From Acholoe squamosa (lineage: Eukaryota; Annelida; Polychaeta; Phyllodocida; Polynoidae), in assembly GCA_949317995.1 (NCBI GenBank), contig OX439038.1, forward strand, positions 36,275,113-36,339,112: a stretch of 64,000 bases of DNA. Reading direction: 5' to 3'. How positions within the stretch are numbered: the stretch's first letter is position 1; the number at the start of each line of letters is the position of its first letter. A program made the position numbers and the translations under genes. The notes beneath the pieces are model-generated. The model was not told where the DNA came from and made no database searches. It saw only the letters and a program-made list of their open reading frames with translations. This document shows, piece by piece, positions 9,940-63,122 of this stretch.

Positions 9940-10056
9940 GTGAATGAGTAAGTAATAGATGTTTAATGCCATTTCGACAGCTAAGGTCATATCCATGGCG
10001 AGAACGACATTACACAATTTCACAGAGGAATGTGTCGGTGCCCGCGCATATATGCA
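9940..10056 (-). mobile_element. SINE copy 1, 5'-truncated, in element A integrase
   Basis: This 117-bp insert matches the copies at 45476-45657 and 50134-50314. It is flanked by an exact 14-bp target duplication, CAAGATGATTGGGA, at 9926-9939 and 10057-10070. Read on the - strand, its 3' end is ATGGCGTTAAACA followed by ACTC-like repeats. It lacks the distal 65 bp or so of the other copies, which is the 5' end in this orientation, as expected from incomplete target-primed copying by a LINE. Confidence 0.8.
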
Positions 10057-11940: not shown

Positions 11941-12304
11941 TGTAATGGTTCGTATCGACTTAAATGTTGGGTGGCTCGTTGGCTCGCTTATCACTAAAGA
12001 CACCAACACAACACGAGAGATTCGGGTTGGGCAAAGCCTCAGATCACCCCTACCGCTCAGGTAGGCCTTTTATTAACGTACTTTCAGTGCCTGTTATACG
12101 TCTTGACTGGAGCAAGTCCAGTCCCCTTCTGCGGATCGTCCGGCTCCTTAGTAGGAGCTGGACGCGAGGCATGGTGCTGCCCCCTCTTGTACCAAACGGG
12201 TATCGCGAAGCGACACCTGGCTGGCATAGAAGGAACGAGCACCACACGAGCACGTCTCTCGGATGATCCACACTAATATATATACAACTATGCCGGCCTC
12301 TACA
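11941..12304 (-). repeat. Element E downstream (3') LTR
   Basis: On the - strand it begins TGTAGAGGCC and ends CCATTACA. It contains a TATA-like TATATATATTAG and a polyadenylation signal (AATAAAAGG). It is preceded on the - strand by the polypurine tract CTAGTGGGGGTGG (12317-12305), which primes plus-strand synthesis. Confidence 0.9.
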
Positions 12305-16000: not shown

Positions 16001-16288
16001 GGGATACAGCGGAATGTCCAAGATATCAATCGAGCGACCCGGAGCCGTTGCTGTAGACGATGGTTCCGGGCGAGGAGGAGGAGGAGGAGGCATCCTATCT
16101 CTGTCTGTGACCTCGGTCGACATCCCAGAGAGAGTGCGAGCAGCCTCTTCGACTTCGGATTCCCTTGCAGGAACCGCCGTTGAGGAGTCCATATTCTCCT
16201 CAATCCGAGACGAGACCGTCGGGTCCTCGCCTTCCTCCAACTGCACGTTGGCGGTTTGACGTGCGGCGTCAATCGTCCCCTGTGCCAT
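13053..16288 (-). pseudogene. Element E third reading frame (ORF3), broken
   Basis: It starts with MAQGTIDAAR at 16288 and reads leftward. In order it shows an acidic, proline-rich front; a stretch with MPVSWLRNYKRLAEAM (matching FPESWLMDYHQMAKGL in B); a cysteine-histidine region (CPFESC, then RRRDMALHLQKAHG); a low-complexity basic region; the motif FPAMGPAGPESQ shared with A and B; and a coiled-coil end with KFFLCFGKHLDEWDG. Several breaks divide it. No membrane segment is present, so it is not an envelope gene. It is homologous to the third frames of A, B and C. Confidence 0.7.
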
Positions 16289-16795
16289 CACAGTGGGACA
16301 ACTTCCAATTTAAAAAATTGGCAACTGTGTTGGACTCCTCCCGAAGGATTCGTCCAACTAAGGTGGGGGATACAATCCACGCAGCTAAAGGCTGCCGGAG
16401 GCCAAACAATAACTGGAGCGAAACAGGTGATGTCTTACCGCCACGAGTCCGCTCTAGTTATGACCAATATGACGTCAGACCTCTCGTCTCGCGAGATCCC
16501 GCGATGGGCTATCCGGTGACCTAGTTCTGCGCTTTCCCGCCGCACCCGCGGCGCCACCTAGCGGTCTAGATCCGAACTAACATTCGACTCGGCATGCGAG
16601 ACGCGGGCTGCTACCCGAGTGCTATCGTCTGGAGCTTGGCGGTATATACAACGCTATCAAGCGAATGTACCGGTTAATCCGTCCGCCGCTCACGGGATAC
16701 AGCTAACCGGGGGGCGCGCGTTCGGCATCCCTAGCCGTGGAATGTATGTTATTCGCCTACGGCGGACAACACACAGCAGCTCGTTGTGTACTGAG
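16289..16795 (-). other. Element E spacer between pol and third frame
   Basis: About 500 bp without a long frame on the coding strand. It includes a CRE-like TGACGTCA (near 16470) and TATATA words near 16640. It is the counterpart of the spacers in A, B and C. Confidence 0.4.
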
Positions 16796-17912: not shown

Positions 17913-18381
17913 TGTGGTGGTCCCGCGTCATCTTCGAGGTACCTTCGTGGTCCTCGTGGGCGACGTCGAGAGCACCTCTATTACCCGACGCCTGGGGGCG
18001 CTGGAGTCCAGCGCCACGTCACCACTTGGTCACGTGGCCCTCGACTCCGGTGTATATAAGGCCGTTGTACGGCCTTCCTCAGGGTCAGTCCAGCCCCGAC
18101 TGACCATTGTGAGCAATGGTCGGCGGCTGCCCGGCTACCATATTCTAATACTCCTCTGTGCTCCTGCACAGAGGGGGTTCATGTGGAATATTAACTCTAG
18201 ACACTAGAAGGCCTAGTGTCGAACCTGCAATAGAGTTCAAAACTCTGCCACCTGTAACTGTGATCGAGAACGGCTGATGCCTATGTGTTATTAGACAATA
18301 AAGTTTTAACTGGAACCTGAATAGTTGTTCTTCGTTGTTTATCGAAAGATTCGATATAACATCGAGTGGTAGAACGCTACA
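17913..18381 (+). repeat. Element C 5' LTR
   Basis: It begins TGTGGTGG and ends GCTACA. A TATA box (TATATAAG, 18053-18060) marks the likely start of transcription and AATAAAG (near 18298) the polyadenylation site. It matches 30407-30874 almost perfectly. Confidence 0.95.
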
Positions 18382-25907: not shown

Positions 25908-26849
25908 TCGATGTTTCGCACAATACCAAGCAGCAGCTTTACTAACCTGTGTTTTTAATGAGACTTTAAAATAACGGGTGCCGTTCTTGAGTAAATCTGT
26001 CTGTGGACGTGAAGCCGACGGTGAATAAAAAATTACACAACGAGAAGTCGTACGATTGCCTCTTAGTTTGAGACAAACTGATACTGGAAACATGGAAATT
26101 TGGAGCCTCTGATTTTATTGACTGTGAGGACGGGTTCCCAGCATAGGCTGGTGGATACTGCCCGAAGGGTAGATCCATATTGGAACCATTTTTTTTTAAT
26201 CCCGGTAGTCTGATGAAGGAGGGGGTGCCCAGATTAATCCATGTTAATAGTGTTGGAACCCATAGACCGCATAGGAAATAACGGCATATGCAAACATTGC
26301 GACTGGAGAAGCAGAGCGTGACGGTGAGGGGAGAGTGAGTCGTTCTATTTTTTGAGCAATACCTTATTTGGTCATGGCGTGATGCGCGGTGGACCAATAG
26401 GGTTCGCCCTCCTCGGTCACGTAGTCCCTTCCTCCAATCAGAGACGTGCGCCACAGGGATAAAAGGCCGCGTCGCCCACCACGGAGGTCACATCTGCGCC
26501 CTTCTCGTGAGAGTCGGACGCAGATAAGCTGGACTAAGCCTAGCTTATTCCAGCTGGTACGCCCCGTCTGGGGACTTCCTACCTGAGTGTAGGAGGTCTC
26601 CCCTGCCTAGTGTCGAGGGACACGGCCTGTGTGAGCGCAGGTTCGTGTTCACTCGAGACTCCAGTCTTCGGTCCCTCGAGCCGCCTGAGTGCGGTTCGAG
26701 GTACATCGAAGACACCTTCGAGGCTTCGACCCGCCAGAGTGCGGATCGAAAAACCTCGAAGATCCTCTTCGACGTCTCGTCCCGTCTGAGAACGGTTCGA
26801 GACCCGGAGTCTTCTCTCCCTGGTGGAACCCGGCAGTTCAGGAAGAACC
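25908..26849 (+). other. Element C spacer between pol and third frame
   Basis: About 940 bp with no convincing protein. The first half is AT-richer. The second half contains promoter-like words (see 26394-26466) and then several near-repeated blocks of the form CTCGAGnCnnCTGAGTGCGGTTCGAG (26650-26800) that could form stems. The region separates a 4.5-kb pol from two further frames, so it probably serves their expression. Confidence 0.45.
26394..26466 (+). promoter_or_regulatory. Candidate internal promoter of element C third frame
   Basis: CCAAT occurs at 26394-26398 and again at 26434-26438, followed by a TATA-like GATAAAAG at 26459-26466. The spacing resembles a CCAAT/TATA promoter. The first ATG of the third frame lies about 385 bp downstream. 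No transcript evidence is available. Confidence 0.35.
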
Positions 26850-28685
26850 ATGGGGTCCTCGTCCGACGAGCAGTCAGGGTACAGCTCTTCGGCGAGCCAC
26901 AAGTCGCAGAAGAAGAAGAAGAAGAAGAAGTCCAAGAGGACCAGACCCGAGCAAGAGCTCGAGTCTACCTCGGCTAAGAGTGCAGCCCTTCTGAAGCAGA
27001 TCGAGGATGCACAGAAAGCCTTGGCTGAGTCCCAGGAGCGGGAGAAGGAGCTCCGCCGGAAGGCGAAGGAGGCAGCTAAGCAGCAGAAGCGCGACTTGAA
27101 GGTCGCAGCTGCTGCCGCCTCGAGAGACTCTTCTCCCGATGAGATGGAGGTCGACGAGCCGTCGACGCCTGCTCCATCGAAAAGTGCTACCCCTTCAGGT
27201 TCTAAAGGCAAGAAGCCGACTGAATCGAAGGCATCCAAGGGTACCTTGAAGGATTTCAAGATCCCTAGGGTGCCCAAGAAGGAAAGTAGCAAGAAAGAGT
27301 CCGCAGCCAAGAAGGCTCCAGCCCGGGAGAGGAGTAGCGAGTCTACTGCTCCACCGGAACCTGGAACCGAGCCGTCGGAGGTCGATGCCGGTGCCGTGGA
27401 GAGCACCGTATCCTCACCCCCAGACACGGCCAGGGCTGTCGACGAGTGGAAGCAACTGTCAGCGATCACTGCCAAACGACGTGCTGAGTACGTCGATGAC
27501 AGGCCACTGACAAAGCTTCAGGACTACCGCAAGAATGGTCAAGTGGTACTCCCAAGTCTCGTCGGAAAGGACGGTAGTGACGACGAGGAATGGTATTCGG
27601 ACGACAGTCATGCCATTGACTGGTATGTCTCGATGATCGAGAATGTTACGAATGCCTCAGACTCGTCGGGGGTGTCGCTGCCCGAGCGACAGCGGATTGG
27701 GTTCGCATGGCGCATCTTCAATCCAGGGCAGCAGTGTGCTTTCGAGAACTGCACACGTAAGGGGTTTCCCCCTCGCGTATACGCGACTGACGGCAGGTAT
27801 GCTCGACACTTGGTTGAAGAGCATCGAGCCATCCGTCCGCAGTTCGGTTGTGTTAAGGTGGAAAAGACCATTCCATGTTATCAGGACCCTGATGACCCGA
27901 CCTCTCCTCCTTTCGTGACCTCACGAAGGGGCTTGATGGCGCGTCATCTCAAGTCGTACAAGCAGCCCCATAAGTACAACGCCGAGGGCGCTATCCAGCT
28001 AGTGGAGACACTGGTTGGAAAGTGCGAACGGAATGAGAAGACAGGCGCGCCGACTAGACACTGGATGCGGATGGCCCCCGCACCCCCGTCTACGAAGCGC
28101 CTGTATATCAGACCGGAGCTGATGCCCGCTTTCTACGGTGCCTACCCCGAGTTCAGGGTAGAGCAACGGAAGAAGCGGGAGGCCAGTCGTCCTCGGGACC
28201 CAGGACCTACAGCCTCTACGAGTGGGAACAAGAGGCCCCACTCTACAGAAGCTGTAAAGTCTGCCGGTTCGACTGAACCTAAGAAGCCTAAGCCGCAGGC
28301 TGCTCCCTCGAAGCCCGAAAAGGCATCGAAAGCCGCCCCGGCCCCGGCTCCTAAAAAGTCGAAGACTGCTTCGACCGGTTCAGCCAAACCAAGCACCAGT
28401 GGTGCTAAAACTGGAGGCAAGACGGTGGAAACCCGGAGTGGTCGTGATCGACAACCCAAGGTGACCACCAACTCGTCTCCTGTCAAGCCCCCTACAGCGG
28501 CAGAGGGCAGCACCCCAGCTGCCACGCCGCGTGTCCACGTAGGAGGCGCGACATTGACCTCGGCAGCAGGAGCTAGCTTCTCCAACGTCGTGACAGGCGC
28601 CGACACCCCGACAGCAACCTTGCGTTGGGAATTGGCACAGCCTGCATACGGCGATGGCGTCGAATGTGGGGTCCCGAAGTTGTAA
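26850..28685 (+). CDS. Element C third frame, first protein (ORF3a), C2H2-like, 611 aa
   Basis: The ATG at 26850 has a good context (A at -3, G at +4). A very lysine-rich front (KKKKKKKSKRTR near residue 20-30) resembles a nuclear localisation signal. A Glu/Lys helical stretch and a disordered Ser/Pro region follow. The ordered core (about residues 240-440) contains C-x4-C (CAFENC) with a paired H-x4-H (RHLVEEH), then a second Cys/His cluster ending RRGLMARHLK. These align with the cores of A, B and E. The rest is basic and Ala/Pro/Lys-rich. There is no signal peptide or membrane helix. The likely roles are nucleic-acid or chromatin binding. This is inference; I do not recognise the family. 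Confidence 0.75.
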   Translation: MGSSSDEQSGYSSSASHKSQKKKKKKKSKRTRPEQELESTSAKSAALLKQIEDAQKALAESQEREKELRRKAKEAAKQQKRDLKVAAAAASRDSSPDEMEVDEPSTPAPSKSATPSGSKGKKPTESKASKGTLKDFKIPRVPKKESSKKESAAKKAPARERSSESTAPPEPGTEPSEVDAGAVESTVSSPPDTARAVDEWKQLSAITAKRRAEYVDDRPLTKLQDYRKNGQVVLPSLVGKDGSDDEEWYSDDSHAIDWYVSMIENVTNASDSSGVSLPERQRIGFAWRIFNPGQQCAFENCTRKGFPPRVYATDGRYARHLVEEHRAIRPQFGCVKVEKTIPCYQDPDDPTSPPFVTSRRGLMARHLKSYKQPHKYNAEGAIQLVETLVGKCERNEKTGAPTRHWMRMAPAPPSTKRLYIRPELMPAFYGAYPEFRVEQRKKREASRPRDPGPTASTSGNKRPHSTEAVKSAGSTEPKKPKPQAAPSKPEKASKAAPAPAPKKSKTASTGSAKPSTSGAKTGGKTVETRSGRDRQPKVTTNSSPVKPPTAAEGSTPAATPRVHVGGATLTSAAGASFSNVVTGADTPTATLRWELAQPAYGDGVECGVPKL

Positions 28686-29811
28686 GGGACTTCTACAGAT
28701 GACAGGCAGCCCTGCTATCGACAAGTTCGGTGAGGCATTCCGTGAGGAAGCGAGTGCCTACTTGTTCGGCCTGTTTGATAGAACAAACATGGCCATCCGT
28801 AACGAGCTCCTTCCGGCTCTTAGGAATGAGGCGCGCCAGACCGTTCAGATGGAGATGGACTCTCGTCTGACCGACGTCCGAACGCGTCTCAATAACTTTG
28901 AGGCACAGGCCCAATATGATATTACCAAGAGGGACAGTATCATAGAAGGCTGGGAGGAAATCGACCGCGAATTCTTTAGAGTCTTCGGGGTCCAACTCTC
29001 GGAATGGATGAGGGACAAACACCATGGCGTCCGAACCCTGAAGCCCGTTCGAACCGAGCCCTCTCGCGAAGCGCAGAGGTACCTCGTCGAGGGTGGAGAG
29101 ATTCCTGACGTCAGGACGCTGGCGGCTCAGACGAATCCTTTGAGAGAGTTGTCTCCAAAGATTGACAGTCTGAGCTCGGCTATGACGATGTTGGGCCGAG
29201 AGCAGGTGGTGCAGGACAAGCCTGACACCCCGGGTAGGTCTCTCGGTGCCTCCGTCTACCCGCCAGCAGCCCCGTCTTCCTCCTCGGTTCCCTTGATAAC
29301 CCTCTCGGGAACCACCGAGCCTACGCCGCCACCGGTCCAGAGAATGGTGTCACCGAGGATCCATCCGGATCTTCAGGGCATCACTCCCCTGGCCCCGGCG
29401 AACGTAGCCGTCTGTCCGGACCCGTCGGCTTCCGCCCAAGCAGTAGAACCTGCCGAGGTGGAACAGTCGATGGATATAGACGGGGACGTCGATGTCGTCG
29501 ATCATTCTCCAAAGCCTCCCCCTGACCAGGGAGACAAGGACGACCGTGAAGGTCAGGAGAGCGACGACGACGACGGAAGCGACTCAGCAGACTCGGCCGT
29601 TCTCCACTCAGATGCTGAGGGGGACTCCCGGGATGCACCCGAGACCTCTAACGAGGCTTGGAGTACGACAATGGACCGCGAGGCCCCATTGCCGGAGTCG
29701 CCGACGTTTTCGGGCCAGCTAGCCGCCAGCGCTCCACATGGAGAGGAGCGCACTGACGGAGAGCAGGCCGAAAGCGACGCCGCTACAGGGTCCATCTCGG
29801 AGGATCAGTAG
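28654..29811 (+). CDS. Element C third frame, second protein (ORF3b), 385 aa
   Basis: It overlaps the end of ORF3a by about 30 bp, and an alternative ATG lies at 28699. The first 130 residues are helical and likely coiled coil (RNELLPALRNEARQ, DSRLTDVRTRLNNFEAQ) and end in the motif EFFRVFGVQLSEW. This matches KFFKVFGVIMDNW in B and KFFLCFGKHLDEW in E, where the same region is the C-terminus of one long frame. The remainder is acidic, Ser/Pro-rich and probably disordered. No known domain is recognised. Confidence 0.7.
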   Translation: MASNVGSRSCKGLLQMTGSPAIDKFGEAFREEASAYLFGLFDRTNMAIRNELLPALRNEARQTVQMEMDSRLTDVRTRLNNFEAQAQYDITKRDSIIEGWEEIDREFFRVFGVQLSEWMRDKHHGVRTLKPVRTEPSREAQRYLVEGGEIPDVRTLAAQTNPLRELSPKIDSLSSAMTMLGREQVVQDKPDTPGRSLGASVYPPAAPSSSSVPLITLSGTTEPTPPPVQRMVSPRIHPDLQGITPLAPANVAVCPDPSASAQAVEPAEVEQSMDIDGDVDVVDHSPKPPPDQGDKDDREGQESDDDDGSDSADSAVLHSDAEGDSRDAPETSNEAWSTTMDREAPLPESPTFSGQLAASAPHGEERTDGEQAESDAATGSISEDQ

Positions 29812-30406: not shown

Positions 30407-30874
30407 TGTGGTGGTCCCGCGTCATCTTCGAGGTACCTTCGTGGTCCTCGTGGGCGACGTCGAGAGCACCTCTATTACCCGACGCCTGGGGGCGCTGGAG
30501 TCCAGCGCCACGTCACCACTTGGTCACGTGGCCCTCGACTCCGGTGTATATAAGGCCGTTGTACGGCCTTCCTCAGGGTCAGTCCAGCCCCGACTGACCA
30601 TTGTGAGCAATGGTCGGCGGCTGCCCGGCTACCATATTCTAATACTCCTCTGTGCTCCTGCACAGAGGGGGTTCATGTGGAATATTAACTCTAGACACTA
30701 GAAGGCCTAGTGTCGAACCTGCAATAGAGTTCAAAACTCTGCCACCTGTAACTGTGATCGAGAACGGCTGATGCCTATGTGTTATTAGACAATAAAGTTT
30801 TAACTGGAACCTGAATAGTTGTTCTTCGTTGTTTATCGAAAGATTCGATATAACATCGAGGGGTAGAACGCTAC
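30407..30874 (+). repeat. Element C 3' LTR
   Basis: A near-exact copy of 17913-18381, with one internal difference noticed. It joins the integrase of element E at its right end. Confidence 0.95.
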
Positions 30875-37945: not shown

Positions 37946-38309
37946 TGTAATGGTTCGTATTGACTTAAATGTTGGGTGGCTCGTTGGCTCGCTTATCACT
38001 AAAGACACCAACACAACACGAAAGATTCGGGTTTGGCAAAGCCCCAGATCACCCCTAATGCTCGGGTAGGCCTTTTATTAACGTACTTCCAGTGCCTGTT
38101 ATACGTCTTGACTGGAGCAAGTCCAGTCCCCTTCTGCGGATCGTCCAGCTCCTTAGTAGGAGCTGGACGTGAGGCATGGTGCTGCCCCCTCTTGTACCCA
38201 ACGGGTATCGCGAAGCAACACCTGGCTGGCATAGAAGGAACGAGCACCACACGAGCACGTCTCTCGGATGATCCACACTAATATATATACAACGATGCCG
38301 GCCCCTACA
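37946..38309 (-). repeat. Element E upstream (5') LTR
   Basis: 364 bp, matching 11941-12304 with about 14 differences. It is followed on the + strand by the CTAC target duplication (38310-38313), after which element A's third frame resumes. Confidence 0.9.
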
Positions 38310-38313
38310 CTAC

Positions 38314-40301
38314 GGAGAAGTTGGATGAGTTGATAGCGGAAGCAACTCCTGTAGGTCGGATGAGTATGAGGTCTTCTACCATACCTTATGATCCGTCTTT
38401 TACCCAGTTAGGAGAAACCGAATTACAGAAAGAAGAAAGACGGATTAAGAATAAGTCAATTTGGGATAAGGAACTAAAAAGTAAGATTGAGGAGCAGGAT
38501 GAGGTTCTTCTGAAACAGAAGAGTGAGTTGGAAGCAATCAGAATGGACAAGGAAAATAAGTCAGACATGGCAAGGCTCAGGCTGGCACGGAACCTGACTA
38601 CCCATGGGGCCGCTAAGAATCTGTCGGATGAGGAATTTAAGTTGACGGTTACCAAAAGAGCTAGGAATCTGTTAAAGAAGAGAATGAAGGAGGATAAGAA
38701 AAAGCTTGAGAAAGAGAAAGTTGAGAAGGAAAAGACTGAGGGGGATAAGCCCGGAAATCAGAGCAAGGACACAGTGTCCAACTCTAAATCGGAAGCTTCG
38801 GGAGATCTGGAAGGAGAGACGGATGAGAAGATGGATACAAGATCGAATCCGGATTGGGATTGGACCGTCGATATCCAGCATCCGGAGCAGTACGATAACG
38901 ATCCGAATCTGACCATAGATGAGAAGAGAATCCAGGCCAACGTTAAGTCAGGTTTCAGAGATTTTGTTCCAAAAAGTCTGCTTGAATGTAAGAGAAATAA
39001 GTATTTCGGGTGCCCTCCTCTGATAGATGCAAATGGTGAAGACGATTTGGAGGAATGGATGAAGATGACTAGGAAAGATGAGAATACCTATATGCTCTAC
39101 GTCAATTGAGTTGAACAAACTCTGGATAATCGGAACGATAAGTACTACGACTTCGACGCCTACAGCAAATTGAAATGGGCGATCGATATGTGGGACGAGA
39201 AGGTCAACGATAAGTGTCCGTTTACGAACTGTAAGGGGATTCCGATCGGATTTTCTAGTCATATCAGATTCATTAGGCATATCGTTGAGGAACATATGCA
39301 CCACCATCCGGTATATCTGTTACATGGATAAAGGTTGGACGGGAGCTGTGTGTTCCGGAATAAGAACGTGTCGGATGAGTGAGTTAGTAAGACATCTGAA
39401 AGCAGACCATCAGATGTTAATAGCTAAGTGGGATAGTTGGAAGATTGAGAACTTTGGAAGTCTGACAGCTAAGGTTACGAAATTCTGTCAGGTAACTAAA
39501 CACTCGAATTCGAAATTCGAAGCCGCATTTGAAGTCAAGATGTGGTCAGGTCCGTTAAACATAGATGGGGATTAGTTTGCAGAGATGAGGAAGTACAGAG
39601 GAGATGTGGCTTACCGTGACGTTAAGGGAGCCACTGCTGCTAAGCAATGGCGTACAAAATCAGTTGGAAAGTTTAGTTTCCGGGGTATCCAAAGACCAAG
39701 CCCAGCTCGGTTCTCGGGTGTTTCGGAAAGAATCCCCAGTGAGAGTCCCTCACCAGTTCCGTCCACATCTGGTCTGGAGCATCGCTCCCCATTGAGTAGT
39801 CTGAAGGGTGCAGCTCCACCTAAATTCGATGAGGCAAGTGAGAAAGACTTCCCTATGCTCGGAACACCTGGTAAGGAGAGTCAGACATTAGATCAGTACG
39901 GAAGAAATAGGAGAGAAAATGTACCAGCACCCACGGCCCCTTCCGAATTCAAAACACCCCGGGACGTTTGGTATGCCTCACAAGACATATGATATAAAGA
40001 TACGAGTGCCACATCAGGAGAAATGTTAAGTTCAGTAGTAAGTTCAGGATCAAGACGCCGGAAGCATCCTTCAGAATCTTCTGGTCCGGAATCAGATAGT
40101 GGCTCGTACACCGTCAGAACTCCGGAAACTAAGGATGCCTCGGGGTACGCTCTGGATAAGATGTCGGATGAATCATTTAAAATTCAGGAAAACGTTGTTC
40201 GCAATTGGCAGCAGCATCATGAAGAGAGGTCAGTCGCGTATCTGGAGCTATCCCGGTTAGAGTGCTTTCCCTCCTCTGGCTCCGAGAACTTACATAGGTA
40301 G
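38314..40301 (+). pseudogene. Element A third reading frame (ORF3), C-terminal part
   Basis: It continues the reading from 11940. It has a strongly charged helical stretch (38400-38760, Lys/Glu-rich), then a core with DDLEEWMKMTRKDEN and CPFTNC followed by RHIVEEHMHHHP. In B the equivalents are EDMEEWLRKKLSD, CPFQRC and RHLVEVHMHQRP. The motif FPMLGTPGKESQTLDQYGR follows, matching YPAMGPPGPEMQIFDQYGR in B. The end is Ser-rich and partly helical. Several breaks are present. Confidence 0.7.
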
Positions 40302-51872: not shown

Positions 51873-51888
51873 CTGGTGCCGTGACCAG
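51873..51888 (+). other. Element B primer-binding site (tRNA-His type)
   Basis: CTGGTGCCGTGACCAG directly follows the LTR, identical to the sites in C and E. Twelve bases match the complement of the tRNA-His 3' end. Confidence 0.65.
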
Positions 51889-51915
51889 TTGGTCTTCGGG
51901 TAAGCGCAGTCAGAA

Positions 51916-54657
51916 ATGACTGAGCTGAGCCCAGTTAGGGGAAATGGCTCAAATCGTGAGCTAGACTCCCCGATGGAGGATGGTGAAATCAAGTCACCAC
52001 CCCAAGGTACGGAGTGGAGGGATCCACTAGAACACTACCCTGATGGGTTAGAAGATGTAAGAAGAAACTTACATCATGAACTGGATGAATTTGGAGACTC
52101 CTTATTCATGCCAGGAGGTACTTCGAAACCTGCACCAATGCATAAAAGTACTGCTCAATTTGGTAAATTACCATTTGAGGTACCAAAGCCTAGTGCAGGT
52201 ATGTTTGAAACTCCATACAGTTCTCGAATTAAACACCAAAAATGTGGATTCGAAAAGAACAAAATGGACGAGCTTGAAGACATGAGAGCTGAATACGAGA
52301 AGATCCAGAAGGATCTTATTACACTGACCGGAACCCGAGACAAGATTCTGACTGAAAACAAACAGTTGATATCGGAACGTCTCGATTACGATCAGAGTTG
52401 TAGACGCCAACAACAATTGTTGTTGGATCAGATGGAGAAAGAAAAGCAAGATTTTCAACTCCAGCACGAACAGTATCGTGATGCACTATATACGGCGGAT
52501 CTGGAATACAGAGCCTCGTATGATGAGTTGAATAGAACTAAACAAGAGTTAAATTCAACTCAATCGGCCTACGGCAAGTATCAAGAAGAGCTGAAGAAAA
52601 TAGAATCAGCCTTCAAAGATGCTCGGGAAACGTACCAAAAACAGACCGATGAGCATGAAAAACTCAAAGATCAATTGATACGCGAATCCACAGATTTGGC
52701 TGTTAAACAGACTAAAATGATGGATGATTATTCCGAACTGGAGGCTAAAGCTATCCAGATGTCAAAGTATCTAGAAGATACTGGTCGTGCAGTAGGCACT
52801 CTTGAATCAGACTTCACTGTTTCAGGAATTGCCCTAAACACGACAAGTAACCAGATGTTCTCTTTGAGGGGCAATGACGGGGTAACAGAGACAACTGTAC
52901 CTCGTTATGAAGGAGTAAAGAGTCATCAGGTTAGATTTACAGATAATACCTCTAAACCTCTTGGTCTAGGTACGGGAAATAAAGGGGATAATTCTGCGAG
53001 TGGAGCTAAACAAAGCCGCTCTGCAGGAAGCTCCACCTTTGACGGCGGATGGCCACAACAGTCACCTTTAGGGGGACCAAATGGCCCGTATGCCCAGTAT
53101 GGATGGAATCAGTCCCAAACAGGAACGAATCCGTCCAATGGTAACACCCGGAACACGTCCGGAGGAACAACCGGACGAGCACCCGGAGGTTCCAGTACAG
53201 CTGGGGGGCAATCCGGATGTGATCAAGGATCCGGACCCTCAAGCGATCGTTCCAGGAGCAGACCCTCTGCCAGTGGGACTGGTTTCAATAATGGAAATCA
53301 GTCGTATGGAACAGGAGGAAACACTAATCCCAATAGTGGTTTCTTTAGCTTTGGTGGAAATACACAACCCACCAATGGTCCAGGGCCGGCTCCCCAAACC
53401 AGTGGATACACCTTTTCACAGGTGCCTCCATACGGAGCAGGGGGATCAGGAGGTGGAGGAGGACCACCATCCGGAGGCTTTGGAAGTACTTATGGTACGA
53501 ATCCTCCAAGGAAAAAGAGACTCAGTCGCCGAGTATCTCTTTCTCCAGGGTTACAAGCACTGCATGATTCTAATGCAGCGATTGCTAACTTAGGTGTTGA
53601 TTGTTACAATCAAGGTCTGGACGATACGGAGATCATGGAATGGAGTAAGGGTTTAACCCTTACTGGATCCACGAATCCGGCTCGTAGAGTAGCTAAGATA
53701 CCTACCCCCTTTAATGCCAAGAACCCTTGGAAGGAGGAGTATCAAGGCTGCGCGGATGTCTTTAACTGCAATGGATGGGGTAAAGCGGAAGCTCTGCCTT
53801 ATTTAGTATGCTGGTTAAAGGAAGGCGACGGAAAAGGAGCCGTGGAACAATGGAGAGATTCTCAAATAACAGGACTCTCAGCCCATATGAAGTATGATGA
53901 ACTCATAGAGATTGCTTCATATTTATATGGGAATATAGTTGGAGAAGACCCTTGGCTGACGTTCACTAAAAGAACACAGAAGCCCAAGGAGTCTGCCAAA
54001 GTGTTCGGCTTAGAATGTCAACGACTGTTGCATAAAGCCAGACCTCAATGGAGACTAGATGATGAATGCTTCCTAGATGAGATGTTTAAACAATTCATTG
54101 AAGGATTGCGGAATCAAGAACACAGGACAGTAGCCTGTGAAGCTTGGAAGAATGATGCCTCTTTGACAGATTTGTTCCAGTCCCTAGATCATTATGATCG
54201 AAAGGCCCGTATCTTTGCCGGGAAGGTACCCCAACGGGTGTCAGCAATGATAATCCCGGAGGGAATACCCGAAACCGATTCATCCGAATCAGGGGAACCT
54301 GACGAAGATGAAAACGTTGGGGCCATTGGCCAAGGGAACCCCCGGTACAACCGGAACTGGGGAAAGAAACCGGGTTACGTCAAGGAGAAAGTGATCACTT
54401 CTAAACCTCCTGTGACTCAACCCGATACCAAACCCACGACGGGTCCTTCTTTATCAGAGGACCTGGTTAACAATTTGGTAAAGAAGATTACTGAAAATCT
54501 TAGGAGGCCTAAGCCTGATAGGACTGTTGTGACATGCTTCCGATGTCAGGAAACTGGGCATTATGCTGCCGAGTGTGAGGCAGATAAGCCAGTTTATAGA
54601 AACACTCGTTACCGGAGCAATCCGGGTAAGGAGGACTCAGTGAAGAAGGAAAACTGA
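51916..54657 (+). CDS. Element B Gag with coiled-coil front, 913 aa
   Basis: In order there is an acidic front (1-110), a long coiled coil (about 115-300), a Gly/Ser/Asn-rich linker (about 350-545), a capsid-like domain (about 570-760; NPARRVAKIPTPF, TFTKRTQKPKESAKVFG), an acidic linker and a CCHC knuckle (CFRCQETGHYAAEC, from residue 874). It would form the particle and bind the RNA. The coiled coil is shared with C and E but is not usual for the superfamily. It ends at a slip site and stem-loop. Confidence 0.85.
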   Translation: MTELSPVRGNGSNRELDSPMEDGEIKSPPQGTEWRDPLEHYPDGLEDVRRNLHHELDEFGDSLFMPGGTSKPAPMHKSTAQFGKLPFEVPKPSAGMFETPYSSRIKHQKCGFEKNKMDELEDMRAEYEKIQKDLITLTGTRDKILTENKQLISERLDYDQSCRRQQQLLLDQMEKEKQDFQLQHEQYRDALYTADLEYRASYDELNRTKQELNSTQSAYGKYQEELKKIESAFKDARETYQKQTDEHEKLKDQLIRESTDLAVKQTKMMDDYSELEAKAIQMSKYLEDTGRAVGTLESDFTVSGIALNTTSNQMFSLRGNDGVTETTVPRYEGVKSHQVRFTDNTSKPLGLGTGNKGDNSASGAKQSRSAGSSTFDGGWPQQSPLGGPNGPYAQYGWNQSQTGTNPSNGNTRNTSGGTTGRAPGGSSTAGGQSGCDQGSGPSSDRSRSRPSASGTGFNNGNQSYGTGGNTNPNSGFFSFGGNTQPTNGPGPAPQTSGYTFSQVPPYGAGGSGGGGGPPSGGFGSTYGTNPPRKKRLSRRVSLSPGLQALHDSNAAIANLGVDCYNQGLDDTEIMEWSKGLTLTGSTNPARRVAKIPTPFNAKNPWKEEYQGCADVFNCNGWGKAEALPYLVCWLKEGDGKGAVEQWRDSQITGLSAHMKYDELIEIASYLYGNIVGEDPWLTFTKRTQKPKESAKVFGLECQRLLHKARPQWRLDDECFLDEMFKQFIEGLRNQEHRTVACEAWKNDASLTDLFQSLDHYDRKARIFAGKVPQRVSAMIIPEGIPETDSSESGEPDEDENVGAIGQGNPRYNRNWGKKPGYVKEKVITSKPPVTQPDTKPTTGPSLSEDLVNNLVKKITENLRRPKPDRTVVTCFRCQETGHYAAECEADKPVYRNTRYRSNPGKEDSVKKEN

Positions 54658-54692: not shown

Positions 54693-57600
54693 AGAGTGAG
54701 TGATTGCCATGACTGCCAGCCTATCGCAGCTTGCGGTACTGGCAAGAATCCTCTAGCGATTTCGCCCAGCAGTGAAGCTAAGGAGCCTGATCAGTTCCTT
54801 ACTCATGAGGCTGGGGAGACTGATAGTACACCAGGTGTCAAGAACCGGCAGAAGAACACAGAGGGGAAACCCGATATCAGTCCAGAGGGAGCGGCCAATG
54901 AGTTGGCCAGGGTGGGGTGTGCCCAGTTCCCCCCGGGTCATCCTTGTCTCGAATTCTTAAAGGGATGTGGATTTGACCTCGGCGCTAAGACGGAACTTGC
55001 TAAGTATGCAAGTAGTCCTACCTACTTGAAAGGTAGGAGGTGGTACGCAGTTGTATCTGTGAGTGGTAGATCCGCTGAGTTTCTTGTCGATACGGGTGCT
55101 AGCCACTCCTGTATTGCTAAGAGATTCTACGATCTTTTGCCTACGAATCATGAAACTTTCACAACGGAAGGAAATGCTCGTACGGCCGACGGTAGCATGA
55201 TACAAACGTTCGGTAGAACATGTATGAGGTTCAGTCTACAGGAAGATAAGGACTTCATCCTTACCCCTACTGTGGCGAACATCGCGGATGATGGTATACT
55301 CGGTCTGGATTTTGCTGCATTATATGGAGCAAGGTTAGATTCCCAGAGGGGAATATTGGAAGTGAGAGACCCGTACCATCTCGAAGTACAATGTGTACTT
55401 AGGCAAGTAAGCAGTGTAGCCAGTGTAGCCCAGACTGTTAAGATACCACCAGGCACAGCCTGTGATGTCTTATGTCGAGCGGACAGACAGTTTTCAGGAA
55501 AAACTGGAGTTGTAGAGCCAGACATGGCCATGTTGTCAAGTATCGGATTGGAATCCGCTGATGTTCTAGTAGCTAACGCTGCTTGGACGGTGGTTCCTAT
55601 ATCCAATACCGGTAACAAGACTGTCTATGTACAGAAGGATACGATCCTTGGATCGGTTGTCTTATCCGAATTGATAGAAGACTGTAAACATGTTTCGGCA
55701 CCCGGAGCCCCTTCCTCACCCGAAAGGAGCCCGGAACTAGACACTCTAGTAGCCGAAAGCCATGTAGAAAGTGATGAACAACGTGAAGCTCTAACTGACT
55801 TGTTGTACAAGTACCGTAAAGCTTTTGCAGCACCGAGTGAACAATTGGGGCGTACCGATAAAGTACTGCATACGATTGACACTGGTGAGAATGAACCTTT
55901 TAAGATTCCTTATAGAAGACTCCCACTAGCCAAAAAAAAAGGTAGCTGAGGAGGAGATAGCTAAAATGCTTGAACAGGATGTAATAATTCCATCAACCAG
56001 TCCTTGGTCTAGCCCTGTGTGCATGGTGACCAAGAAAGATGGTAGCATCCGTTTCTGCATAGATTACCGGAAATTGAATGGTATGACCAAGAAGAATTCA
56101 TATCCCTTACCACGGATCGATGAGACTATAGACTCCCTTGGAGGTAAGCAATGGTATTGCTCTCTAGACTTACAATCCGGGTACTGGCAAGTGGGTATGC
56201 ATCCGAAAGATATGGAGAAGACGGCCTTTTCCAGTCATATTGGATTATTCCAGTATAATGTGATGCCGTTTGGATTGTGCAATGCACCGGCGACATTTGA
56301 AGCCATGATGGAAACTTTATTAAGTGACCTTTTATGGAAGAAATGTCTCGTCTATCTAGACGATGTGATTGTCTTTGGAAAGACATACGAAGAATGCTTG
56401 GAAAATTTAGGTATGGTCCTGGAAAGGATCATAACTAATGGTTTGAAGCTGAAACCCAAGAAGTGCGATCTTTTCAAAAGATCTATTAATTACTTGGGGC
56501 GAATAATCTCGAATGAAGGGATTAAAGCCGATCCGGAGAAACTGGATGCCGTGTCAAATTGGCAAGCACCCACGAATGCGAAAGAAGTTAGGTCCTTCCT
56601 CGGATTCTGTTCCTACTACCGGGACTTTATCCCAGGATATTCAAGGGTTGCCTTTCCTATCCAGAGTTTGTCCCACTGGACACCCGGGATCAGAAAGGAA
56701 CGATTCCCTTGGGGACCCGAGCAAGACGAGGCCTTTATGAAAATAAAGGATTTGTTTGCTATCACACCTGTGTTGAGATACCCCACGGAGAATGATCATT
56801 TCATTCTAGATACTGATGCTAGTAATGAAAGCATAGGAGCCGCCCTTTCTCAGGTCCAGGATGGGGTCTAAGTTCCTATAGCCTTCGCTAGTAACACGTT
56901 GAGTAAATCTCAAAGAAACTATTGTACCACTAAACGTGAGTTGTTGGCTGTGGTGGTCTATACGAAGAAGTTCAAGCACTTTTTGTGGGGGAGTGATTTC
57001 ACTCTACGGACTGATCACTCTTCCCTCAGATGGTTATTGAACTTCAAAGATGCAGAGGGGATGATAGGTCGCTGGTTAGCGCACCTATCCGAATTCGGTC
57101 TAAATCACAGCCAGATTGAACACCGAGCCGGGGCAAAGCATTTGAATGCAGATGCTTTGTCTAGAATCCCAGTGAGGAAATGTGCAAATGCTGAGTGCAC
57201 TGATTGTGGAGCACACAATGCTGTGTTGGCAGGGGTTCGAGTTCCATTCGAAACCCATCCGGAACATGTCTTGAATTGGTCCTTGGAGACCATCAGGCAG
57301 TTCCAGAAGTCTGATGCAGTCACATCACGTTTGATTAAATTCCTTAATCAGGGTATCTGTCCCCCAAGACCCGTAGTGTCATTGGAGAACAGAGAGATGA
57401 GACGATTCTTAGCTCAATGGGCCGAGCTAAAAGTCCGGGATGGTATTCTGTTTCGATGGAAGAACCATTCTAATAGGAACAAAACCTTGCAAGTTGTCAT
57501 ACCTAGTGCTATGCGACGAGATATTATGTATTTCTGTCATGGACATAGAACTAGTGGGCACTTTGGAAAGAAAAGGTCTCTAGAACGTCTGACCAGACGA

Positions 57601-58890
57601 TACTATTGGCCCGGCATGAGTACAGATCTCACCCGATGGGTGGAGACCTGTCCCGAGTGCTGTAAGAACAAACCAGGACCCGGGTTAGGCAAGCTGCCAT
57701 TATCCCAGGAACTGTTTGGTGTAAGGTTTGCTAGAATAGCTGTTGACATTATTAGTGGGATTCCCCCCACTCCTAGTGGCAACACGTGTATGATGGTCGT
57801 GTCTGATTATTATACCAAGTACACCCGAGTGTTCCCTTTACCGGATCATAAGGCTGTTACTTGTGCTATGGCCTTTGTAAAAGGGTGGGTGCTGCACCTA
57901 GGTGTCCCACTCATGTTACATAGTGACCAAGGCAGAGAATTTGAGTCTAGTCTGTGGCAGGAGATGTGTAATTGTCTGGCGATCTGCAAGACAAGAACTA
58001 ATCCCTATAGACCACAGAGCGATGGACAAGTAGAGAGATTCAATAGGACTTTGATCCAAGTATTGAAGTCTCTGGTAAATGAGCAGATGGATGATTGGGA
58101 TGAACAATGTGAATTCGTGGTACATGCCTATAATGGCACTGTGCATTCGAGCACAAACTGTTCTCCTAATCTCCTCGTTTTTGGAGAGGATTTGATTATG
58201 CCAGCCGATTTGGTGTTCGGCGTAATAAGAATGAATCCGGAAGCCCCTTGCCAGGTGATGTTTGTAGAATCCCTACGGGATAATTTCAAACAAGCCTATG
58301 AGAGGGTTAGAGACGAGTTGCAGAAAACTGCGCGTTGGCAGAAAGTTGGCTATGACACAGGTCTAAAAGCTAGATTTTTTAATCTAGGGGATAGAGTACT
58401 GCGTCTACACCAACCTCTAGCTAACCTGAAATTAGCCAGTAATTGGGATGGACCTTTCACTATAACTCAGGTTATTAGTGATTGCACAGTGATTATTAAA
58501 TCACAGCTTGGTAAATGTTACAAGTCAAATGTAGCGAGACTACGCCCATGGAGGGGGAGGGATACCTCCACCGAAATGTACGGCGATGGTCTATTGGAAG
58601 TAATGGAACAGAGTCGTGTTAAGCAACTCGAAGTGGTACCGACCCGAAAGCGAGGACCCGGGCGGCCACGGAAGGTTGCAGACCCGAAGAGGGTGGTGCC
58701 CCCTGTCGTAACATCCGGAAAGCAGGGGAAGATACAAAAAGTCTCGGCAGGCGCAGGTAAAAATAAGAGGAAAGGTCCCTCTAAGGCTAAGAAGACCTTG
58801 GAAAAGGCTCTTATGGATACCAGGTCAATAAAAGAGGCCTCAAAACCTCTTAGACGCAGTCCAAGGTTGCTACAGACTGCCGTAACCTAG
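54658..58890 (+). pseudogene. Element B pol: protease, RT, RNase H, integrase with AT-hook tail
   Basis: The protease is at about 55090 (LVDTGASHSCIAKRF) and the reverse transcriptase at about 55966-56600 (LDLQSGYWQVGM, FGLCNAPATFE, YLDDVIVFGK). RNase H (DTDASNESIGAALSQV) and integrase follow (HGHRTSGHFGK, CPECC, VDIISG, LHSDQGREFES, QSDGQVERFNRTL), then the GPF module (NWDGPFTITQ). The tail carries an AT-hook core (KRGPGRPRK, 58648-58674) and ends RRSPRLLQTAVT. It is almost whole, with about two breaks. Confidence 0.9.
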
Positions 58891-59444
58891 CCTGTTAACA
58901 CAACGAGTGTGTTGTCCTGTACTGTGTACTGTTATATGTTGTAACCTAGTTCAATGTATATTTGAGCCGGTCAAGAGTCTCTGGAAAAGGTCCTATGACA
59001 ATGAACCCATGGTTTTGGACGGATAATCCGGTGGATATGCTTATGCTATCCATAAACTCCAGAATACCTAGCGAATTGTCATAGTCGAACCCTGAGTACG
59101 GACGGACGACCGATCGGGTATTGTATTGTTTTTATGTAAGGGCGCGTGACCTAATTAAGGGCACGCGGGAAAGTTGTTGACCCATTTTCGAATGGTCACG
59201 TGAGGCGCCGGTTTGATCATGCGCAGCGATTCAAGTTCGAGTATCCCGCCATATTGTCTTATTCCTGCGAAGGAAGAAGACGTGGCCGAGGGTGGTCTTG
59301 CTCTTGTTGGAGTCTGATAGCCCGTGACAGCCATATTCCGAGGTGTGCCCTCGTTAAAAGGCACCCGCCTTTCACTGGGTAAGCAGTACTCACTGCTTAT
59401 CCGGTGGATTGGGATATTTTATCCCCGAACAGCCACTTCTGTCG
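58891..59444 (+). other. Element B spacer between pol and third frame, promoter-like
   Basis: No protein is encoded. The right part carries words common in TATA-less animal promoters: an E-box TCACGTGA (59196-59203), an NRF1-like CATGCGCA (59218-59225) and a YY1-like CCCGCCATATTG (59245-59256). These sit about 200-250 bp before the third-frame ATG, so an internal promoter is plausible. Confidence 0.4.
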
Positions 59445-62400
59445 ATGGCAGAAGAGGCCGTCCGTCTTGGCGGCGGTGCCGGTGCCAGCACCCCGCCAGA
59501 GTATGGAAGTGGTTCTCCCAAGAGTCCCACTTATACATACGACGATCAGCAATACGATGCTGATTGTGATCAAATGGATCAACAAATGAATGTTGATCAG
59601 TACTTCTCTGGAGTAGACGATAGCGACGTAGAATCGTTCTACGACGCATCCGACAACTCCAGACAAGTTAGTCCTGAACGCCGAGGCGTTCAACAACAAA
59701 TTGATGTAGGTGAGCCTTATGTAGCCCCTCCATCCGAAGGTTTGAGTGGAGAACCGGCAGGAGCCCAGTCTCTTGACAGGGCTCTGATGCCACCTCCCCC
59801 TCAACTGCCGCCCCGTCTTGGTGGGAGTACCTCATTCGGTGCTTTGGGACCTGCTTCTCCGGTTGACAGGCCAATGCACCTAGAGCTGCCCTTCCCAGAC
59901 AGTCCCGAATGGCATGATGTAGCCGGTCCATATGACGGACGGATGTTAGCAATTTCCGAGGAAATGCTGATACCCACCTGTTATGGGACGCCCAGAGAGG
60001 TTGACGAGCGTGTTGTCAACGCAATCTGGGAATGTGCTCATCCGCAGTGGGCTAATACCTTTCCGGAGTCCTGGTTGATGGATTACCATCAGATGGCCAA
60101 AGGATTGGTAGTCCACTTATGGTTTCGTAAAGCCGTCTGGGACGCAGAAATGGCTTTCCGAAGGAATACCTCTTATAGGCCTTCCTATGTGTCTGACAAA
60201 ACGGGTTACACCGGTGTCAAGGCAGATGAGGTCTCTAGATACATAGACAGAGACCAGATCCTACTGTTAAGCACAGCGGATGAGTATGAAGCAGCAGGTA
60301 ACGCTGTTGTGGATTACTGTCCAGGGGTCCCTATTACGTCTCAAACCATTGAGGCAGAAGAGGCCCGTATTGGTGTGTCTCCACTAGACAGACTCGGGGT
60401 AATACAAGACCTCGTAGTACGTCTATTGGAGAGACAGTATGCACTGGCGCATCCGGAGTTAGTACCCGGACCCGCACCCGTGCAAGTAACAGCCAAGATG
60501 GCCGATCGGATGGACCGTCTCATGTCTCCTGCTGAAGCTCCCACCTTGGGAGACGCAGCAGTAGTACCTGAGAAGGCCCTACCTGATGCAGATGTTTCCC
60601 TTAAAACTGCTCAGTCTACCCCTACGAAGACTGAGCAAGTAAAGGAGAAAGCAGCTGGTGGAAAGGGTAAAACAACCCCCACCAAAGGTAAGGGTAAAGG
60701 GAAGCGGTCAGGAACCGAACCCTCTACCAGCACGAGTGTGGACGACAGTACCCGAACCCGTCGGGTGTCTCCACGCTCGGCCAATAAGAAGGGCGCTAAG
60801 GCTTCGGATGTCTCCGGCAATGAGACGGACGCATCCGAGCCTGGCACTTCTACTAACGGCAGATCCCGCAGGAGGAATAAGAAGAAGGTTGACCAACGCA
60901 AACCTGAACCTATCGAGGTAGACGTTCAAGCTGATAATACAGAAGCTGAACCGGCTGTCCCAACCGTAAAAGTTGAGCTCGGTGTGCCAATCGTCAAGCT
61001 ACACGACGTAATGGCCGATTTGAGTGGAGACGCTCAAGATGCTGCAGCCCAGGTCCTCGCGGGTCAACAACCCGTTGTGCAACCTGTGGATGTACCATCC
61101 GACCCGGAGGGAGAGGAGCCGGTTGACCCAGTTGTGGATGTCACTCCGACTGACGAGCAAGAGGCTGCTATCTGGGCTAACGCCAATAGCAACTTTGCCG
61201 ACTTCATTCCTCTACACAGGGGACACCTGAAGGGGAGTAAATCCGTATGGAGACTGCCCCCTCGGATCACCTGTGAGAGGCAGGAAGATATGGAGGAGTG
61301 GCTTCGCAAGAAGCTCTCTGATAGAAAGCCGGCCAATATGTACTGGATCTATTGGGAATTCGTTAAGAATTCGCCCAATGGTCTGTACAATTATGACCAG
61401 AAGGGCAAGCTCAAGTTTGCTCTAGATGAGTACTACGGGGAGGGTCGTAAGGATTGTCCCTTCCAACGTTGTACTCAAAGTGAGGGTGAGGTTGAATTCT
61501 TCATCGAGAAAGACGCGTTCCTTCGTCATCTCGTGGAGGTTCATATGCACCAGAGGCCGGAATATGTCTGCGACCGAGAGGTTGGCAAGAAATGTGCTAA
61601 ATGCACAGGATGTGTCACCCCCCGACGCGGAGACATGGTCCGGCACTATGTGACTTCGCATGGAGAGGGCCTGGAGGCAGCCATAGATCGGGTGATGAAA
61701 ATTCACTCCGAACTCTATGGCAACCTTAGGGGCCTCAATGCAGAGAAGTTGGCTTCCCTCACACCGAGTACGAAGCAGTTTGCGCCTACGGTTCCTGGTA
61801 CTAACCAGAAACTAAAGGCTCGGTTTGCCCAGACTCCCGGGTCCGGCAAACTAGAGTACGCTCAGGAGGAGTACGATCTGTTAAACGAATGGAGAAGCAA
61901 CAAGGCCCGCCGTCGTGGTGGGGCTTATGTAACTCCATCCGGAGAACAGGTCCGAAGCCGCAGGGATTACCGCCAGGGACCCTCTGTAGCAGATAGGAAG
62001 AGACAGGCGTCTGAATCTCCAAGCCGAGCCAGGTCACCACTGGAGGCGCTGGAGAGACAGACAAATGGGGGAAGGAAGAAGCCACATCTTCCATCTCCTA
62101 CTGGAACTCCTTCCCATTATGGGCGAGCACCAACTCCACGAGGTGCACAGAACCCGACATTCTTTGGTGTCAGTGGACCGAGTGGCCAGTCCGCCCGGAA
62201 ACACGCGCCTTTGAATGTCAAAGACCCGAAGCAGTACCCTGCTATGGGCCCACCCGGACCAGAGATGCAAATCTTTGATCAGTACGGGAGGGTCAAGCAG
62301 GAACTGCCGACAGTAGGAGGTCAAGCTCCCCGACCTACAATGAGTGCTGTGGTGAGACAACGTCCACCCGCACCATTGTTGACGGCCAAAGACCTTAGAA

Positions 62401-63122
62401 GGGAATTGTCACGGTTGCCCCTGGTTCAGGGATTACCAACTCAAGGCCCTTCTTCGACCACTGCTAGTGCGGTTACTACTGCGGTTGCTTCTTCGCACAC
62501 GCAGGTAGCTGTCACTGCGAGCGGGTCTGGAGCACAGCCGAAGCCTCAGGGTCAGGTACCCCCACCTGGTGCTGTGGTTCATCGGCCTAAGCTGATCCAG
62601 ACAGTGGAGACCTTCTTCAAGAAGGAGGACAAATTGTCTTGCAATATCCAGAGCAAACAATTTGAGACGCTACAGCACCATCTGGAAAACCTCCACCTGG
62701 ACATGTATCGTCGGACCGTGTCGAGCACTCTCCAGTGTATTGACGCGATCCAGAAGTCAGAGATCAACCGAATCTCGACTCAGATCAAAGCGGATGTTGC
62801 CAAAGATAAGCAGGAAGCTGCTAATCTGCGGCAGGAGGCCCTATCCGAGAAGGAAACAGCTTCTCAGATGCTCGACCTAGAACGAGCAACGAACATGAAG
62901 AACCAGCAAAAGTTCTTCAAGGTCTTCGGAGTTATCATGGATAACTGGGACGGTACACCTGAGCATGCTTTGAAGCTGTTCGAAGCACGCCAAAAGGTGA
63001 AACTTACACCTGCTGTCCCCGCATTGGCACCTACGGATGGAACTGGTATGAACCCCCCTGTTCAGCCACTGGCTCAACAACCGGGTCCAAACCAGCCACC
63101 CGAGGAGAACATGGAACAGTAA
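59445..63122 (+). CDS. Element B third reading frame (ORF3), 1225 aa
   Basis: The ATG at 59445 opens MAEEAVRLGG. The front 130 residues are disordered. A helical part follows (NAIWECAHPQW, FPESWLMDYHQM), then Lys/Ser/Pro-rich linkers. The core has EDMEEWLRKKLSD, then finger 1 (C671-x4-C676, H695-x4-H700) and finger 2 (C720-x2-C723, H734-x4-H739). After another basic linker comes YPAMGPPGPEMQIFDQYGR, shared with A and E. The end is a coiled coil (HHLENLHLDMYRR onward) closing with KFFKVFGVIMDNWDG. There is no signal peptide or transmembrane helix, so it is not an envelope. It sits at the env position. The likely role is nucleic-acid or chromatin binding plus self-assembly, by inference only. 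Confidence 0.8.
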   Translation: MAEEAVRLGGGAGASTPPEYGSGSPKSPTYTYDDQQYDADCDQMDQQMNVDQYFSGVDDSDVESFYDASDNSRQVSPERRGVQQQIDVGEPYVAPPSEGLSGEPAGAQSLDRALMPPPPQLPPRLGGSTSFGALGPASPVDRPMHLELPFPDSPEWHDVAGPYDGRMLAISEEMLIPTCYGTPREVDERVVNAIWECAHPQWANTFPESWLMDYHQMAKGLVVHLWFRKAVWDAEMAFRRNTSYRPSYVSDKTGYTGVKADEVSRYIDRDQILLLSTADEYEAAGNAVVDYCPGVPITSQTIEAEEARIGVSPLDRLGVIQDLVVRLLERQYALAHPELVPGPAPVQVTAKMADRMDRLMSPAEAPTLGDAAVVPEKALPDADVSLKTAQSTPTKTEQVKEKAAGGKGKTTPTKGKGKGKRSGTEPSTSTSVDDSTRTRRVSPRSANKKGAKASDVSGNETDASEPGTSTNGRSRRRNKKKVDQRKPEPIEVDVQADNTEAEPAVPTVKVELGVPIVKLHDVMADLSGDAQDAAAQVLAGQQPVVQPVDVPSDPEGEEPVDPVVDVTPTDEQEAAIWANANSNFADFIPLHRGHLKGSKSVWRLPPRITCERQEDMEEWLRKKLSDRKPANMYWIYWEFVKNSPNGLYNYDQKGKLKFALDEYYGEGRKDCPFQRCTQSEGEVEFFIEKDAFLRHLVEVHMHQRPEYVCDREVGKKCAKCTGCVTPRRGDMVRHYVTSHGEGLEAAIDRVMKIHSELYGNLRGLNAEKLASLTPSTKQFAPTVPGTNQKLKARFAQTPGSGKLEYAQEEYDLLNEWRSNKARRRGGAYVTPSGEQVRSRRDYRQGPSVADRKRQASESPSRARSPLEALERQTNGGRKKPHLPSPTGTPSHYGRAPTPRGAQNPTFFGVSGPSGQSARKHAPLNVKDPKQYPAMGPPGPEMQIFDQYGRVKQELPTVGGQAPRPTMSAVVRQRPPAPLLTAKDLRRELSRLPLVQGLPTQGPSSTTASAVTTAVASSHTQVAVTASGSGAQPKPQGQVPPPGAVVHRPKLIQTVETFFKKEDKLSCNIQSKQFETLQHHLENLHLDMYRRTVSSTLQCIDAIQKSEINRISTQIKADVAKDKQEAANLRQEALSEKETASQMLDLERATNMKNQQKFFKVFGVIMDNWDGTPEHALKLFEARQKVKLTPAVPALAPTDGTGMNPPVQPLAQQPGPNQPPEENMEQ

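Follow-up and report, generated by a model that had tools for sequence, protein, structure and literature searches.

A conserved third gene with a putative zinc-finger core, distinct from an envelope, in Ty3/gypsy elements of the annelid Acholoe squamosa

The window analysed here is the whole stretch of 64,000 nucleotides from contig OX439038.1 of Acholoe squamosa (assembly GCA_949317995.1, positions 36,275,113 to 36,339,112, forward strand). It contains four Ty3/gypsy-type elements, A, B, C, and E, the letters being assigned by matching these elements to the copies named in a first-pass annotation of the same DNA. According to that annotation, all four carry a long frame 3' of pol, in the position of the envelope gene (env), which is not an envelope and encodes a nuclear or particle-associated nucleic-acid-binding protein. 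This third open reading frame (ORF3) is intact in element E, where it has the following features (motif blocks were read by eye from the translations).

59445..63122, + strand: element E ORF3, intact, 1225 amino acids (first ATG at 59445, stop ends at 63122)
60060..60140, + strand: N-terminal block SWLxxYxxxA, common to E and B; weak, two elements only
61293..61436, + strand: pre-finger block, a D-x-E-x-W region and an aromatic helical-looking stretch, found in A, B, C, E, and the fifth copy L001 (see below)
61455..61544, + strand: finger 1, C-x4-C-x18-H-x4-H (CPFQRC...RHLVEVH), a motif with putative zinc binding
61569..61661, + strand: finger 2, C-x7-C...RRGDMVRH-x4-H; an H-x3-RP-x3-C linker connects it with finger 1
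62235..62291, + strand: PAMGPPGPEMQ block, near-identical in B and degenerate in A
62910..62954, + strand: C-terminal FFxxFG...WDG motif, with weak held-out support

The long frame in the env position is borne out for A, B, C, and E. Searched against the window with tblastn, the E frame finds the copies in A, B, and C with E-values of 1.6e-15 to 6.4e-7, and its 1225 codons compare with a longest open run of 223 in 500 dinucleotide shuffles. The same comparison gives 1051 versus 318 codons for L001 and 611 versus 342 for C. Counted from an upstream TTG at 59409, the E frame would comprise 1237 amino acids. ORF3 of element C consists of two overlapping frames of 611 and 385 amino acids, which may reflect either a mutation or a programmed shift, and ORF3 of A and B is broken. 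Core pieces share 24–37% identity with the E core; outside the conserved blocks ORF3 is mostly low-complexity, and the linkers could not be aligned. Several hundred bases with stops set it apart from pol. Almost certainly, ORF3 is a true accessory gene that belongs to a single Ty3/gypsy lineage and is passed on together with the element.

A search with the C pol (residues 380–1260) matched 4740 proteins among 8000 scored candidates, and lineage proteins were taken from the best 120 of these matches. Among them, 42 proteins have 54–82% identity to the C pol (P0001–P0044 minus P0003 and P0041, which are from Cordylochernes scorpioides and have 45% and 41% identity, respectively). The 42 include 39 ENA and 2 JGI entries, on contigs of 3.5–60 kb, and one of them (P0042) is named. 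Its source is the 13,374-bp contig L001, filed under a Calditrichota metagenome-assembled genome (MAG). This contig holds gag, an open pol of 1586 amino acids, and then an intact frame of 1051 amino acids, and on our reading it is a eukaryotic retroelement contig mis-binned in a bacterial MAG. Its ends (L001 1–13374) are identical over 91 bp. The L001 third frame matches that of C (30% identity over 152 amino acids, E-value 2.5e-14) and that of E (34% over 67, 4e-5).

As for the phylogeny, the length filter removed two of 125 reverse transcriptase (RT) pieces, P0055 and P0045, which left 123, and 75 rows chosen by rank (to P0060 plus 12 later ones), including the four elements and L001, were used for a quick-search tree built without reference Ty3/gypsy clades. 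A 26-row clade (SH-aLRT 100) unites elements A, B, and E; C groups with P0001, P0002, and P0054 (99); and L001 is joined by P0040 and by P0042, its own copy (100). These three subclades lie inside a group of 47 rows (80), itself inside groups of 49 (86) and 56 rows (98). The ORF3 core is present in all five lineage members with readable DNA 3' of pol (A, B, C, E, and L001). Since E, C, and L001 belong to three separate pol subclades, an ancestral origin is the simplest account, and the gene is probably ancestral to the lineage. The alternative of a host gene captured once was rejected, as five diverged elements carry ORF3. Regarding the earlier claim of an undescribed lineage, the discrete pol clade stands, with one named protein among the 42 drawn from the best 120 matches; the word "undescribed" reaches as far as the sources searched, which did not include Repbase.

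The first-pass annotation had suggested building a profile from the third-frame cores, and this was done with E, C, and L001. In a leave-one-out scheme, a profile from two of these intact cores was run with the third held out, against 2978 open reading frames (from the window and 15 loci) and an equal number of reversed decoys. Each held-out core was recovered at least at the 1.8e-7 level (E 1.8e-7, C 4.1e-13, L001 8.3e-14), and the best decoy for any profile scored 0.31. With the three-core profile, pieces of B gave 9.4e-11 and pieces of A 1.2e-7 and 5.2e-5. This support has weak points. Pieces holding only the second cluster stay at decoy level (B 0.075–0.34; A 0.89, one profile), although BLAST does match them, and the short C-terminal motif gives 0.0044–0.25 for B and 0.34 for E with held-out profiles and is missed in C and L001. 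Among 14 gypsy contigs outside the lineage (L002–L015), of which only 6 have at least 1.9 kb after pol, the best core match is 0.76.

The three intact cores have a common order: D-x-E-x-W and an aromatic helical-looking stretch; then C-x2-4-C ... R-H-(L/I)-V-E-x-H with the linker H-x3-(R/I)-P-x3-C; and finally C-x7-12-C ... R-R-G-x-M-x-R-H ... H. We take this linker to recall the TGEKP linker of C2H2 fingers. Compared with the C2H2 unit, C-x2-4-C-x12-H-x3-5-H, the loops are longer and the Cys spacing of finger 2 is wider. The core thus patterned reads as two C2H2-like zinc fingers. Of the blocks listed in the first-pass annotation, C-P/A-F-x-x-C is present in A, B, C, and E, and an exact FFxxFG occurs in B, C, and E; WDG follows this motif in E, B, and L001. 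R-H-(L/I)-V-E-x-H occurs in A, C, and E, as well as in L001, and is not found in B, where the frame is broken. The second Cys/His cluster can be recognised in all four window elements, though in degenerate form in A, and PAMGPxGPExQ, which had also been assigned to A, is exact in B and E only, A having a degenerate PMLGTPGKESQ. The N-terminal block of E and B is matched by blastp (1.7e-4 and 3.6e-4), and single-sequence profiles give it a weak 0.026 and 0.39.

Searches of Pfam, PDB, and protein collections assigned no significant known family to ORF3. Pfam matches that fell below the cut-off were discounted, namely GEMI5_RBS at 0.027 for the N-terminal piece of B, Mgr1 at 0.078 for the C-terminal piece of E, and DUF7528 at 0.096 for L001. 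Protein searches with E frame residues 560–1210 and 571–760 scored 7999 and 75 candidates, respectively, and found no homologue; both require shared 5-residue words, and the first was limited to the 7999 candidates with most shared words, so these negatives are not proof of absence. Nor did scans of IMG/VR detect a relative, whether made with the C pol, a pol alignment, an alignment of the ORF3 cores, or the frame of L001.

According to hydropathy, the highest 19-residue Kyte-Doolittle mean in eight ORF3 pieces is 0.24–1.16, a scan limited to these pieces, with other broken parts of A and B outside it; a membrane helix reaches roughly 1.6. The Pfam and PDB searches gave no homology to env or a fusogen. 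As the hydropathy of these pieces gives no sign of a signal peptide or membrane helix, ORF3 is, judged from its sequence, not an envelope, and the earlier statement to this effect holds.

As for selection, eight pairs of the ORF3 core have proportions of synonymous differences (pS) of 0.65–0.84 and of nonsynonymous differences (pN) of 0.40–0.59, and four RT pairs have 0.81–0.85 and 0.15–0.29, respectively. On four like pairs the core changes 1.6 to 3.9 times faster than RT by pN. Of the 8 core pairs, 4 yield a finite ratio of nonsynonymous to synonymous rates (dN/dS, 0.21–0.51), with synonymous sites saturated and with local alignments, which favour conserved parts. These values fit the purifying selection proposed earlier; owing to the saturation they are suggestive only and are not a measure of its strength.

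Two features at the pol–ORF3 junction may be relevant to function.

59373..59407, + strand: element E, 15-bp hairpin about 40 nt 5' of the ORF3 ATG; folding z-score ranks 2nd and 5th of 293 windows
26630..26830, + strand: element C, tandem hairpins 5' of ORF3; best window rank 2 of 298

Folding was compared with 40 shuffles per window. The median z lies below zero in every case (−1.35 to −1.81), which makes rank a more reliable guide than z itself; coding windows fold as strongly, with first rank at 59914 in E and 20781 in C. For A and B there is a single folding run with no control. The loops of the C hairpins look alike, with some compensatory stem differences by eye. The junction hairpins of E and C could be an RNA target of the ORF3 protein.

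The nearest functional precedent is CERV of Cer1, a Ty3/gypsy element of C. elegans, on account of its env position, nuclear location, essential Cys loop, and role in genomic RNA export, for which it is needed; it is made from a spliced mRNA (PMC10309623). As described there, CERV too is a large non-env frame between pol and the 3' long terminal repeat (LTR) with a Cys-rich, possibly zinc-finger region; it diverges strongly between species, has predicted helical and multimerising domains, and, like ORF3 in the searches above, lacks obvious homology elsewhere, in its case outside nematodes (PMC10309623). Where ORF3 has C2H2-like fingers, CERV shows a possible C4 finger together with a G-like domain, and Cer1 is without a stop between gag and pol (PMC10309623); here the two lie in different frames.

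Our preferred reading, held tentatively and at somewhat less than even confidence, is that by analogy ORF3 works like CERV or lentiviral Rev in genomic RNA export. The protein would be made from its own mRNA, probably spliced, and enter the nucleus, where the fingers would bind the full-length RNA of the element and the C-terminal helical-looking segment would drive multimerisation; unspliced RNA could thereby exit the nucleus for translation and packaging. We infer zinc and RNA binding, nuclear location, splicing, multimerisation, and export alike. Rev is small, arginine-rich, and without zinc fingers. The likeness to it concerns the proposed mode of action only (PMC10309623). An extension of this proposal, in which the lineage would possess its own Rev/CERV-type export system on a C2H2-finger scaffold, reading the pol–ORF3 hairpin arrays and arisen independently of Cer1 and the retroviruses, appears unlikely. 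The earlier interpretation is supported in part: the conserved non-envelope third gene and the discrete pol lineage stand, nucleic-acid binding goes as far as the motif suggests, and the nuclear or particle-associated location is conjectural.

Several observations count against an export role. DNA is bound by such fingers no less readily than RNA. Runs of K/R, which speak for export, occur in C, L001, and B (with SPRR repeats in L001), but a run of at least 4 is absent from the E and A pieces. Pfam C2H2 models give one match among 7 pieces, with 9.8 bits versus a cut-off of 27, and PDB profile matches are insignificant, CcmL (0.44) being first and the C2H2 protein TZAP (1.9) second. At the L001 junction folding is only moderate (best rank 23 of 264; ranking was done for E, C, and L001). 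Splice-donor-like leader sites, judged by eye and unscored, are good only in E and L001 and poor in B and C, and a spliced ORF3 mRNA was dropped as a claim, the sites seen being too weak. The comparison with CERV is made with its published description, not a sequence alignment. Moreover, the primer site of Cer1 is TGGGGGCCGAACCG, for tRNA-Pro (PMC3315495), versus TGGTGCCGTGACC in B, C, and E and TGGTGCCGTGAACC in L001.

Among other explanations, a DNA-binding or chromatin factor that acts on the element's own LTR or on host chromatin, controlling transcription or steering integration, is somewhat unlikely. DNA is the usual target of tandem C2H2-like fingers joined by a TGEKP-like linker, and the SPRR repeats presumably resemble DNA-binding tails; however, there are just two fingers with odd spacing, and these repeats are confined to L001. 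The high core pN relative to RT, together with unalignable linkers, would suit a fast-evolving counter-defence protein that suppresses host silencing by piRNA or RNAi. This is distinctly unlikely, as no known suppressor domain was matched in the searches above and fast low-complexity linkers are common. A structural partner in the particle, or second nucleocapsid-like protein, agrees with the zinc-finger-like core and helical-looking C-terminal segment, yet gag has its own CCHC knuckle in both E and C and the stops mentioned above divide ORF3 from pol, which makes it quite improbable. A degenerate or unusual envelope has the location 3' of pol in its favour and is hardly credible given eight pieces without a hydrophobic stretch (highest window mean 1.16) and no env match.

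Regarding other third frames, the Juno, Vesta, and TelKA elements of bdelloid rotifers carry diverse ORF3s 3' of pol, several of them non-envelope, which differ from the frame described here in being DEDDy exonucleases, GDSL esterases, coiled-coil or transmembrane proteins, or a paramyxovirus-like env; that paper does not use the term zinc finger (PMC5408684). Accessory frames of plant Retand elements, TRP28, also lie between pol and the 3' LTR, with a supposed DNA-binding regulatory role; they are mostly antisense and carry a TRP28 domain in a plant lineage, whereas ORF3 is sense and below all Pfam thresholds (PMC11963269). A zinc-finger third frame of this kind was not found in the open-access literature, searched by titles and abstract openings, with subscription papers outside its scope. 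Env-position frames of LTR retrotransposons are often without known function, and the same non-envelope gene kept with a recognisable core across diverged elements makes its role testable. Should the RNA-export reading hold, retroelements would have evolved systems of this kind at least twice; should the counter-defence reading hold, ORF3 would mark an arms race.

The remaining features of the four elements are listed below.

1179–3872 and 9398–10549, + strand: element A (outermost), decayed pol pieces
11330..11940, + strand: element A, ORF3 start before the B insertion, assigned by position and open frame, without its own sequence match
38314..40298, + strand: element A, ORF3 after the B insertion, decayed (BLAST, translations, profile test)
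37946..38309, − strand: element B 5' LTR, ends set by eye (BLAST alignment 37946–38313)
11941..12304, − strand: element B 3' LTR, 95.9% identity to the 5' LTR over 368 BLAST-aligned bases
13056..16291, − strand: element B ORF3, decayed, several frames
17913..18380, + strand: element C 5' LTR
18442..21210, + strand: element C gag, open
21411..25907, + strand: element C pol, open throughout (protease, RT, RNase H, integrase)
26850..28685, + strand: element C ORF3 first part, 611 amino acids, both fingers
28654..29811, + strand: element C ORF3 second part, other frame, 385 amino acids, FFRVFG motif
30407..30874, + strand: element C 3' LTR, 99.8% identity to the 5' LTR over 468 bases
near 51873: element E 5' LTR end
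51874..51891, + strand: element E primer binding site TGGTGCCGTGACCAGTTG
51916..54657, + strand: element E gag, CCHC knuckle
54696..58890, + strand: element E pol, one frameshift and one in-frame stop

Element C is nested in B and B in A, and the view of A, B, and C as separate loci was therefore rejected. B interrupts the third frame of A at 11940 and is flanked by the target duplication CTAC (38310–38313 and 11937–11940), and its integrase is split by C. At the C insertion (17912 / 30875) no clean target duplication is seen, and B apparently lost about three residues there, as judged against the E protein. The Ty3/gypsy order of protease, RT, RNase H, and integrase is present in the C and L001 pol according to Pfam, LTR pairs are found in B and C, and the different frames of gag and pol follow from the coordinates of the window elements and L001. 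The primer sites TGGTGCCGTGACCAGTTG / TGGTGCCGTGACC presumably correspond to tRNA-His. No 3' LTR of E was found before the window end; 3' of its ORF3, window 63434–63623 holds short direct repeats of the GCTAGCACTACAGGCATCAGGGTTTAGCTA type. An Rfam scan gave tRNA as the sole match.

Outside the lineage, the eukaryotic-looking contig L006, filed as Limnohabitans, has a gypsy gag (160–1539) and pol (1551–5315) followed on the same strand (5461–9457) by frames of 502 and 726 amino acids. The region of the latter has a Tudor match (3e-11) and a RING match below the cut-off; no LTR pair was seen and no PDB match was obtained. These frames may represent a captured piRNA-pathway-like protein or an adjacent host gene. 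In the window itself, a further pol fragment (40499–41408) is part of another copy, and between the pol pieces of A lies a Harbinger-like pair of frames (5237–9082), with Pfam matches to DDE_Tnp_4 at 5237–6037 and to a MADF/Myb-like domain at 7955–9082 (21.8 bits versus a cut-off of 22).

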